A DNA stretch of 36,011 nt from a virus: positions 1 through 36,011 of the IMG/VR virus record IMGVR_UViG_3300027759_000224; one strand, 5' to 3'. Both the position numbers and the translations under genes were made by a program. Shown here one piece after another: positions 31,629 through 36,011 of the stretch. The stretch's first letter is position 1. Every line of letters starts with the position of its first letter. The notes beneath the pieces are model-generated. The model searched no databases, was not told where the DNA came from, and saw only the letters and a program-made list of their open reading frames with translations.

Positions 31629-31756
31629 TTGGTTTCTCCGGTTGTTGATGAAGTGATCATCTCATAAATGATACCAACAGCAGTTGCTAATTGATTAGGG
31701 ATAACCCTTAGTAAAAAGAATGCATAATGCGTCACTTAGGAGTTGACAATACCATC
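31629..31756. promoter_or_regulatory. Divergent control region between minus operon and HTH gene
   Basis: 128 bp without genes between divergent transcription units, so both promoters must lie here. It holds a 15-bp inverted repeat GATGA-N5-TCATC (31647-31661). A TATCAT-like minus-strand -10 lies at 31668-31673 and a CATAAT-like plus-strand -10 at 31723-31728. No convincing -35 box was found for either. The HTH protein encoded next door is the natural candidate to bind the repeat. Confidence 0.5.
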
Positions 31757-31987
31757 ATGGAATCCACTACACAACAAGCAATCAGAGCCATCCGCGAGAA
31801 AGCGGAACGATCCGGTTTCACTCTAAGCGATGTCGCATACGCCGCAGGCATTGATAAGGCCCAGGTCTCGCGCTGGTCCACCGGCAAGGTCGTTCCACTG
31901 TACTCGGCAGTCATCAATCTGCAAGAGGCTTGCGATGCCCTGGTAGAGGCCAGATTGCTGGCGCTACAGAAGGAGAGGCAGCAGTGA
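31757..31987 (+). CDS. HTH (XRE/Cro-type) regulator
   Basis: 76 residues from ATG 31757. AGGAG lies at 31738-31742, which is far (14 nt), and a frame start at 31727 would instead overlap the putative -10, so the start is uncertain. IREKAERSGFTLSDVAYAAG and IDKAQVSRWSTGKVVPL form the helix-turn-helix with an XRE-like recognition helix (KAQVSRWS). Probably a repressor or early regulator acting on the divergent region. The end overlaps the next gene by GTGA. Confidence 0.75.
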   Translation: MESTTQQAIRAIREKAERSGFTLSDVAYAAGIDKAQVSRWSTGKVVPLYSAVINLQEACDALVEARLLALQKERQQ

Positions 31988-32664
31988 TTCACTATCACGG
32001 GACGCCTATTAGTCCCATGAAGGCCATAGAGACAATGGGCGGCAAACACTTTTGCGTTTCTTATGCCCAACCTCAAGACTTAAAACGCTGTTTGCGAATT
32101 GGGCAATCACTCATGTTGGACAACGGAGCATTTAGCGCAAAAACAAGGGGATTTCCTTTTGACCGTGATGGGTTTTATGCTTGGGTTGAGCCTTTTTTGG
32201 CACATCCACATTGGGCGGTTGTGCCTGATGTGATTGATGGGTCGATAGATGAACAGCGGGAAATGGTTAAATCTTGGCCTTTTCGTAAAGATATGGGCAT
32301 TCCGGTGTGGCATCTTGGCTTGCCAATTTCTTACCTAATTGAATTGTGCGATGCATGGGGACGGGTATGCTTTGGGTCAGCCGGTGAGTTTTGGCAGATT
32401 GGCACATCAAAATGGTGTCACCGTATGGATGAGGCATTCAACGCTTTGGTAAACACTTACGGCAGACAAATCCCTTGGGTGCATGGAATGCGTATGCTTG
32501 GGCAGGCAAGCGGACCTTGGCCTTTGGCGAGTGCCGATTCGACTAATGTTGCGCTGCATCACGCAGAGCATTTAGAGTGCGCTGGTTGCATGGCAAAGCG
32601 CATTGATTCAACCAATCCACCGACAAAGTGGAATATTCAACCACTACAAGAGGTTTTATGTTGA
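31984..32664 (+). CDS. DpdA-like TGT-fold protein (candidate 7-deazaguanine DNA transglycosylase)
   Basis: 226 residues from GTG 31984, which overlaps the regulator stop and follows AGGAG. Key segments: YHGTPISP at the start (4-11); LMLDNGAFSAK (43-53, D46); AVVPDVIDG (78-86, D82); IPVWHLG (106-112); VCFGSAG (128-134); WVHGMRML (165-172); and ASADSTN (182-188). CAGC at 199-202 may bind metal. This order matches a phage family related to tRNA-guanine transglycosylases, to which DpdA (which swaps guanine in DNA for a preQ0-type base) belongs. The next gene resembles preQ0 transporters. The transglycosylase fold is likely; DNA rather than RNA as substrate, and catalytic competence, are inferred. 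Confidence 0.62.
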   Translation: MIHYHGTPISPMKAIETMGGKHFCVSYAQPQDLKRCLRIGQSLMLDNGAFSAKTRGFPFDRDGFYAWVEPFLAHPHWAVVPDVIDGSIDEQREMVKSWPFRKDMGIPVWHLGLPISYLIELCDAWGRVCFGSAGEFWQIGTSKWCHRMDEAFNALVNTYGRQIPWVHGMRMLGQASGPWPLASADSTNVALHHAEHLECAGCMAKRIDSTNPPTKWNIQPLQEVLC

Positions 32665-33128
32665 TTGCTGCCATTGTTTGTTACGCCATTGCCATGACAT
32701 TGGCAAACCTATCCATTGCCACCTTTGGCGTTTGGGTCAGTCCTATCAATGCGTTTTTGTTCATTGGACTCGACCTGGCATTGCGGGATTGGTTGCAGAT
32801 GCATATTAAGGCCTGGCAGATGGCGCTCTTGATTGCAGTTAGCGGCGTCCTGACCTACGCCTTGAACCAGGATGCTGGCATGATTTCTGTGGCATCTGCT
32901 GCATCTTTTACGTTGGCAGCACTTGCGGATTGGGCGGTATTTTATAAGGTAACAGGGTCTTGGTTCAAGCGTGCTAATGCATCCAATGTTGCGGGTGCAG
33001 CAGTTGACTCTGTGGCGTTTCCGACAATTGCTTTCGGTGTGCTGATGCCGGAAATCATTGCCCTGCAATTTTCCGCCAAAGTGGCTGGTGGATATGTTTG
33101 GTCTGTGTTGCTTGGGAAACTCAAATGA
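32658..33128 (+). CDS. VUT/YhhQ-like membrane protein (candidate 7-deazaguanine precursor transporter)
   Basis: 156 residues from ATG 32658, overlapping the previous stop by 7 bp; AAGAGG lies just upstream. About five hydrophobic helices. ANLSIATFGVWVSPINAFLF, LDLALRDWLQ, SVASAASFTLAALADWAVFY and NASNVAGAAVDSVAFPTIAF, followed by AAKVAGGYVWS, are the VUT family pattern. In bacteria YhhQ imports queuosine precursors (preQ0/preQ1). It is coupled to the DpdA-like gene, suggesting supply of a modified base. It is shorter than bacterial YhhQ. Transport of a 7-deazaguanine is inferred from the family. Confidence 0.78.
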   Translation: MLIAAIVCYAIAMTLANLSIATFGVWVSPINAFLFIGLDLALRDWLQMHIKAWQMALLIAVSGVLTYALNQDAGMISVASAASFTLAALADWAVFYKVTGSWFKRANASNVAGAAVDSVAFPTIAFGVLMPEIIALQFSAKVAGGYVWSVLLGKLK

Positions 33129-33604
33129 GTTTCGTTATCGGCATCGACCCAGGCATCAGCGGAGCCATTGCTGTGTTTGATTGGTACTCATACACCTTAA
33201 AAGAAGTCATTGATATGCCCACCTTGGAGGTGGACTCTGGCAAGACGAAAAAACGGCATATCAGCGCGGCAGGGTTACGCAACATATTGGAGGGCTACCC
33301 CGACTCGCACGTCGTGATTGAGAAGGTTGGCGCTATGCCAGGCCAAGGCGTGACCAGTATGTTTAACTTTGGCCGCAGTGCAGGCATCATTGAGGGAGTT
33401 GTGGTTGGCTTGAAGATTCCGCACACCTACGTCACTCCGCAGACCTGGACGAAGGCTATGGGCCGCGCAGCGGGTAAGGATGCCAGCCGTATGCGTGCAA
33501 TGGAACTGTTCCCTGCCAAAGCTGACCTGTTCAAGCGTGCGAAGGACGATGGTCGCGCAGACGCTGCTCTTATTGCTTACTGGTACATCACAAAAAATGC
33601 TTGA
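33125..33604 (+). CDS. ruvC: RuvC-like Holliday-junction nuclease
   Basis: 159 residues, ATG 33125 overlapping the transporter stop. GIDPGISGAIAVFD (D8), VVIEKVGAMPGQGVTSMFNF (E66) and KDDGRADAALIAYW (D142/D146) give the acidic RNase H-type active site of phage RuvC proteins. It would resolve branched DNA during recombination or before packaging. It lies upstream of the PD-(D/E)XK nuclease and SSB genes. Confidence 0.9.
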   Translation: MSFVIGIDPGISGAIAVFDWYSYTLKEVIDMPTLEVDSGKTKKRHISAAGLRNILEGYPDSHVVIEKVGAMPGQGVTSMFNFGRSAGIIEGVVVGLKIPHTYVTPQTWTKAMGRAAGKDASRMRAMELFPAKADLFKRAKDDGRADAALIAYWYITKNA

Positions 33605-35485: not shown

Positions 35486-35517
35486 GCCGGTGGGTTGATC
35501 TCCACCGGCTTTTTTTT
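35486..35517 (+). terminator. Intrinsic terminator after SSB-like gene
   Basis: Stem GCCGGTGG (35486-35493), loop of 8, arm CCACCGGC (35502-35509), eight perfect pairs, then eight T (35510-35517). Ends the 31757-35471 transcript before the methyltransferase gene. Confidence 0.95.
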
Positions 35518-35536
35518 CCTCTAAAAAAGTACAAGT

Positions 35537-36011
35537 ATGAAATTTCTATCAGTTTGCAGTGGGATTGAGGCGGCAAGCGTCGCCTGGCATCCATTGGGAT
35601 GGGAATCGGTGGCGTATTCCGAGATTGAGCCGTTCCCTTGCAAGGTGTTGCAGCACCATTACCCAGACGTTCCCAACTTGGGCGATATGACTAAATTTAA
35701 GGAGTGGCCTGATGCAGATGTCGATGTTTTCGTTGGAGGAACACCATGCCAATCATTCTCAGTCGCAGGACTCAGAAAGGGATTGGATGACCCGCGTGGC
35801 AACCTCATGCTTACCTATCTTGCCATTGCTAAACAATATCGCCCCAACTGGCTGGTCTGGGAAAACGTCCCCGGCGTTCTGTCCTCCGCTGACGGACGGG
35901 ACTTTGGTTCCCTCCTCGGAGGGTTCGCATATCGGGTGCTTGACGCTCAATATTTCGGAGTGGCACAGCGACGCAAACGTGTGTTCGTTGTCGGATACCT
36001 TGGAGACTGGC
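35537..36011 (+). CDS. dcm: DNA (cytosine-5) methyltransferase, 5' part (partial at window end)
   Basis: 158 codons from ATG 35537 to the window end; continues at the window start. LSVCSGIEAASVAWHPLGWE (motif I, SAM binding), FVGGTPCQSFSVAG with catalytic C71 (motif IV), VWENVPGVLSS with ENV at 109-111 (motif VI) and GVAQRRKR at 141-148 (motif VIII). At residues 128-129 (GSLLGGFAYR) seven residues are missing compared with the window-start version, which reads through VLAILGYGFAYR. The joined protein would be about 410 residues. It starts 20 bp after the terminator T-run with only a weak ribosome site. Confidence 0.92.
   Translation, partial: MKFLSVCSGIEAASVAWHPLGWESVAYSEIEPFPCKVLQHHYPDVPNLGDMTKFKEWPDADVDVFVGGTPCQSFSVAGLRKGLDDPRGNLMLTYLAIAKQYRPNWLVWENVPGVLSSADGRDFGSLLGGFAYRVLDAQYFGVAQRRKRVFVVGYLGDW
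35921..36011 (+). repeat. Terminal direct repeat, right copy (91 bp)
   Basis: Identical to 23-113. Immediately upstream the sequence differs from the left copy by absence of the 21 bases at 2-22. The flank (ending CTCCTCGGA at 35920) otherwise joins in frame to base 2. Confidence 0.92.

Follow-up and report, generated by a model that had tools for sequence, protein, structure and literature searches.

Organization of the locus and completeness of the genome

The DNA analysed here, called the window throughout, is the whole IMG/VR virus record IMGVR_UViG_3300027759_000224 (36,011 bases) of a freshwater phage. The genes of interest belong to a head-to-tail run of four genes on the + strand, HTH-dpdA-vut-ruvC, in which neighbouring genes overlap at 31984-31987, 32658-32664 and 33125-33128. 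The run opens with a gene (31727..31987) for an 86-aa Cro/C1-type HTH protein (Pfam HTH_31, 7.3e-7; phrog_4836, CII-like regulator, 4.5e-5), the stop of which overlaps the start of dpdA by 4 bp. The dpdA gene (31984..32664, GTG start) encodes a 226-aa protein assigned by profile matches to the DpdA family of TGT-fold base-exchange enzymes, and the vut gene (32658..33128, ATG start) encodes a 156-aa putative transporter of the Vut_1/QPTR (YhhQ) family. The original prediction had described the former by the successive blocks LDNGAF, PDVIDG, HGMRML and SADSTN, and the latter as a VUT-family membrane protein overlapping it by 7 bp; all of this was confirmed. The overlap reads ATGTTGA, and ribosome-binding-like sequences were found at 31970 for dpdA (AAGGAG) and at 32649 for vut (AGAGG). 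Strong purifying selection acts on both, with dN/dS of 0.03-0.07 for dpdA and 0.07-0.11 for vut. The fourth gene (33125..33604) encodes a RuvC-like Holliday junction resolvase (phrog_1770, 5.5e-38) and overlaps the vut stop by 4 bp; it is context only, lying outside the conserved cassette and absent beside it in most relatives.

The last 91 bases of the record equal bases 22-112, and the frame of a 398-aa DNA methyltransferase runs over the ends of the record (35504-36011 joined to 113-823). Because of this terminal overlap and the methyltransferase frame across the join, the phage genome is probably complete (closed). The end-spanning methyltransferase, of the C5-cytosine type as judged by its motifs, is a second DNA-modification gene of the genome. 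PHROG scans of 36 of the larger ORFs and a tblastn search of the full window with the genes of phage 9g revealed no folE, queD, queE or queC, so the earlier claim that the genome holds no genes of this type stands at that sensitivity.

The enzyme resembles phage DpdA

The 226-aa protein was matched by phrog_887, 'queuine tRNA-ribosyltransferase', with an E value of 3.8e-46. When a profile built from 159 enzyme sequences was searched against the 261 ORFs of phage 9g, the 9g DpdA was the sole match (hmmsearch 5e-14), and in hhalign it was aligned over 152 columns at 96.8 % with a score of 72.7 vs 22.4 for the next 9g ORF. The residues expected to be catalytic are conserved in this alignment. D46, within the invariant LDNGAF motif (32116..32133), and D185, the probable nucleophile within SADSTN (codon 32536..32538), are invariant in 28 sequences and align with D72 and D215 of 9g DpdA, respectively. 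H167 (codon 32482..32484), likewise invariant in the 28 sequences, falls on 9g DpdA H196, a histidine conserved in DpdA and absent from DpdA2 (PMC6884629). The DpdA-like identity proposed originally is thus borne out by the 9g DpdA profile match and by the retention of both aspartates and the histidine. The gp38 protein of Pantoea phage MED16 is 39.7 % identical to the enzyme, which by its sequence is placed in the DpdA family as a relative of the singleton group that includes gp38.

No Pfam entry matched the enzyme up to E 10, the TGT domain PF01702 included, and hhalign of the enzyme profile with 25 host TGTs gave 0.3 %, i.e. no profile match. A single-sequence search of the PDB with the enzyme, as well as profile searches of both proteins, returned nothing meaningful. 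The AF2 model of the enzyme had a pLDDT of 70, with residues 169-203, D185 included, below 50. In VIA-align of this model with its weak C-terminal part, Cap10 (9ntn) was placed at the top with Z 11.4, the TGT of Z. mobilis reached approximately 10.4, rows 2-19 were TGTs at Z of about 10 and other barrels scored 8.5-9.8. Structural matches in BFVD included phage queuine tRNA-ribosyltransferases. Foldseek of the model against the PDB gave nothing below 1e-3; its main matches were aldo-keto reductases with poor scores, which were rejected, and TGTs emerged on realignment only.

The transporter is a distant member of the QPTR family

Pfam Vut_1 (PF02592) matched the 156-aa protein with 7.8e-7 and 30 bits, above the cut-off of 27.2, and phrog_4899 matched it with 1.4e-32. 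Since these two matches are joined by that of phrog_887 to the enzyme, the motifs noticed in both proteins are not due to chance. The transporter reached 16.7 bits with the preQ0/preQ1 transporter equivalog NF008406 and failed its cut-off of 252, so that from sequence comparison it is best classed as a relative within the broader QPTR family and not as an E. coli-type equivalog. Six membrane helices were predicted in the AF2 model (pLDDT 94). The model resembles the folds of ECF S-components with Z of about 10.9, a likeness that is only suggestive because this value for a helical bundle falls below the tool guard of 13. QPTR members move preQ0/preQ1 in E. coli or queuine in Chlamydia and their substrates are not readable from sequence (PMC11130926); as family members differ in this respect, the substrate of the phage transporter is not to be assumed.

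The enzyme and transporter genes form a cassette with exchangeable partners

In 167 deduplicated viral loci from IMG/VR, gathered via similarity to a few starting transporters and hence no bias-free sample of the VUT genes of phages, a TGT-fold enzyme was encoded beside the transporter, always on the same strand. The median gap between the paired genes was 9 bp, and the enzyme gene came first in 157 loci and the transporter gene in 10. Five other IMG/VR transporters had no adjacent enzyme, and three of these sit at contig ends. Among records of isolate phages encoding the transporter, it lay beside DpdA in 14 of 21. A scan with the transporter of an Acinetobacter phage found no relatives. Most enzyme relatives lacked the transporter, which was missing from 49 of the 58 bacterial-genome loci and from 93 of the 107 records of phages.

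The flanks of the cassette were mostly unrelated to the window even at 97 % enzyme identity, which indicates that the pair moves as a cassette. Its parts are exchanged as well. Two loci, L101 (879-2825) and L102 (789-2672), share flanks of 86-90 % identical DNA and transporters of 96 % identity; their enzymes have just 41 % identity, so that one enzyme has been cleanly replaced by another in nature under a near-identical transporter. The converse swap was also seen, with enzymes 90 % and transporters 51 % identical. The pairing of the transporter with a TGT-fold enzyme is therefore real and general, and constitutes a unit with exchangeable partners. A functional link between the two is supported by this conserved adjacency in unrelated phages, by the partner swaps and by the occurrence of queD/queE at the enzyme gene elsewhere.

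A second enzyme family and transporters without an adjacent enzyme

The same transporter family pairs with proteins of about 200 aa from phrog_15826 ('unknown function'), which share the motif order of the first enzyme family in the blocks DNG, PDVV, WVHMGR and GCDSVDGT. Such genes were found beside or near vut in L318 (2389-2988), L320 (2306-2905), L327 (2384-2983), L335 (3524-4108) and L340 (4302-4889). The profile link between the two families is weak (hhalign 52 %), and phrog_15826 is probably, judging by these sequence features, another phage base-exchange family. The loci L287, L318, L320-L322, L327, L328, L335 and L340, considered as enzyme-less exceptions, were rejected as such, because each encodes another TGT-like enzyme close to the transporter. 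In the mEp021-type coliphage lineage the transporter had no such enzyme nearby in 25 deduplicated loci. In coliphages of this type (L239 3484-5217, L244-L270) it is flanked by a DUF6378 protein on one side and a DNA methyltransferase on the other. In L338 (2908-4857) approximately 650 bp lie between a VUT without DpdA and a gene of Mom-like DNA modification.

Association with 7-deazaguanine synthesis and with hosts

In Caulobacter phage DMCA (L242, 4705-5726) queD directly precedes the DpdA-like gene, and in a Rhizobiales MAG (L175, 8001-9607) queE and queD come after it. As a side reading, dpdA with queD or queE-queD may represent a 'make' version replacing the 'import' version.

Among 48 genomes with an enzyme relative, 5 lacked QueC and the same 5 lacked QueD and QueF; 4 of these 5 prophage hosts carried the form with the transporter. 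Hosts without the pathway thus made up 4/9 of those with VUT vs 1/39 of those without it (Fisher p=0.003; p=0.035 for Alphaproteobacteria alone), in a small, partly MAG-based and phylogenetically non-independent sample and by a test chosen after the data were seen. The test was not enlargeable: 385 sampled genomes of the Devosia class yielded the known match only. QueC was present in 5/9 VUT+ hosts and also in Ideonella livida (L156), which harbours the nearest of the prophages located on long contigs, hence import is not always necessary. Many hosts have their own preQ0 pathway, and import is not strictly needed there.

Proposed mechanism and alternative explanations

These data are best explained by a salvage-type phage 7-deazaguanine cassette composed of an importer and an inserter, a reading that we consider probable. 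The substrate, the direction of transport, the DNA target and any benefit to the phage, as we infer them, are the following. The 156-aa transporter would be made in the infected cell and import a free 7-deazaguanine base, most likely preQ0 and possibly preQ1 or queuine. The DpdA-family enzyme would swap guanine in phage DNA for the imported base, and by analogy with TGT it may use D185 as the nucleophile and D46 as the acid/base, with H167 as the family's conserved histidine. The outcome would be sparse marks of the dPreQ0/dADG type. The transporter would raise or secure the pool of the base where the host makes none, or where it makes little and this is drained to queuosine. Several observations count against this reading, namely the absence of the transporter from most enzyme relatives, the mEp021- and L338-type transporters without an enzyme, QueC in 5/9 VUT+ hosts and the low model confidence around D185.

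MED16 is the closest relative with measured DNA. This phage has no synthesis genes and its DNA contains dADG at 0.13 % of G with a trace of dPreQ0 (PMC8306585), which lends indirect support to the view that the enzyme of the window may insert a 7-deazaguanine into DNA. The proposal that the modification serves as restriction protection is unsupported, since at this level of dADG most of the restriction enzymes tested still cut MED16 DNA (PMC8306585).

If the target were tRNA and not DNA, the enzyme would be a phage tRNA-guanine transglycosylase that, together with the importer, tunes queuosine of host or phage tRNA in infection. The label 'queuine tRNA-ribosyltransferase' in PHROG and GenBank agrees with this, QPTR-bTGT fusions exist in bacteria (PMC11130926), and the lone transporter of the mEp021-type phages would suit an auxiliary role. 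The enzyme, however, matches neither the Pfam TGT domain nor the profiles of the 25 host TGTs and does match 9g DpdA, DpdA histidine included; moreover, the phage of one homolog carries 7-deazaguanine in its DNA (MED16, PMC8306585) and TGT is already present in 45 of the 48 prophage hosts. We regard the action on tRNA as improbable. The structural comparison brings in a different target, as Cap10 of type IV CBASS, a TGT-family enzyme acting on a 7-deazaguanine-linked protein (PMC11996544), heads the list with Z 11.4, near TGT at about 10.4. The phage enzyme might accordingly act on a protein or nucleotide, for example in counter-defence, with the transporter supplying or removing the base. A difference of one Z unit is not discriminating, though, and neither Cap9 nor CD-NTase appeared in the PHROG scans, nor QueC in tblastn of the window. 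An importer is not obviously needed in such a system, and both the similarity to 9g DpdA and the dADG measured in MED16 argue against it, so that a Cap10-like role appears very unlikely.

A further explanation concerns the transporter, whose substrate might be something other than a 7-deazaguanine, the adjacency to the enzyme reflecting only co-residence in islands of DNA-modification or moron genes. The mEp021-type VUT between Dam-type and C5-type methyltransferases and the L338-type VUT near a Mom-like gene, both without DpdA, speak for this. They are set against same-strand, overlapping or abutting genes in 167 loci in both orders, against enzyme swaps under one transporter and against the membership of Vut_1/QPTR, a family known to transport preQ0, preQ1 and queuine (PMC11130926). 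Mere co-residence seems to us an unlikely account of the pairing.

Significance of the proposed importer-inserter pair

In 2019, 76 phages with DpdA and no synthesis genes were counted and the source of their base was left as a question; phages with DpdA alone and YhhQ homologs in phages were both reported, and no correlation was noted. The term 'minimal' module used in the original prediction is wrong, DpdA-only phages being a known large group. No description of the tight, exchangeable coupling of enzyme and transporter was found in the searched literature, and a prior mention in the MMBR 2024 7-deazaguanine review is possible. The recurrence of the pair in many unrelated phages, with exchange of its parts, suggests that, in some phages, the base placed in their DNA is one that they import. 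An importer gene that overlaps or abuts the enzyme gene would be a concrete answer to where the base of DpdA-only phages comes from, and could explain how DpdA functions in hosts without preQ0 synthesis. It would also make phrog_4899 and phrog_15826, both annotated as 'unknown function', probable parts of phage 7-deazaguanine systems. A wider and quite tentative generalization is that in several phage lineages a swappable importer-inserter cassette ties DNA modification to an environmental base, possibly one beyond the synthetic capacity of the host, with genome chemistry changing from one environment to another, and that phrog_15826 is a further DNA base exchanger.

Comparison with known systems

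The closest counterparts of the enzyme are 9g DpdA and the singleton DpdA proteins (Hutinet 2019, PMC6884629) together with MED16 gp38 (PMC8306585), with which it appears to share the TGT-type base-exchange family, the Asp pair, the histidine corresponding to His196 and the location in a phage gene. As in the singleton DpdA phages, no preQ0 synthesis genes were found in the studied phage, whereas 9g has its own. MED16 has DpdA without an adjacent VUT gene, therefore the transporter is not required; here, in contrast, a short enzyme (226 aa) is encoded by a gene that overlaps the transporter gene.

With QPTR/YhhQ (COG1738, Pfam Vut_1) the phage transporter shares the Vut_1 domain above the cut-off and six predicted membrane helices, but it has 156 aa vs 221 positions in the QPTR/YhhQ equivalog model. 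In bacteria QPTR/YhhQ is sometimes fused to bTGT, whereas here it is phage-encoded beside DpdA. Bacterial TGT (PF01702) stands high in the structural ranking of the enzyme model, and the phage LDNGAF resembles the TGT motif DSGGFQ; the bacterial protein, however, has approximately 370-400 aa vs 226 aa and gives no detectable sequence-profile match. Cap10 of type IV CBASS, the top structural row, probably has in common with the enzyme the TGT-family fold and the 7-deazaguanine chemistry, but binds a deazaguanylated protein within CBASS, and such partners were not found in the studied phage by the PHROG scans and QueC tblastn.
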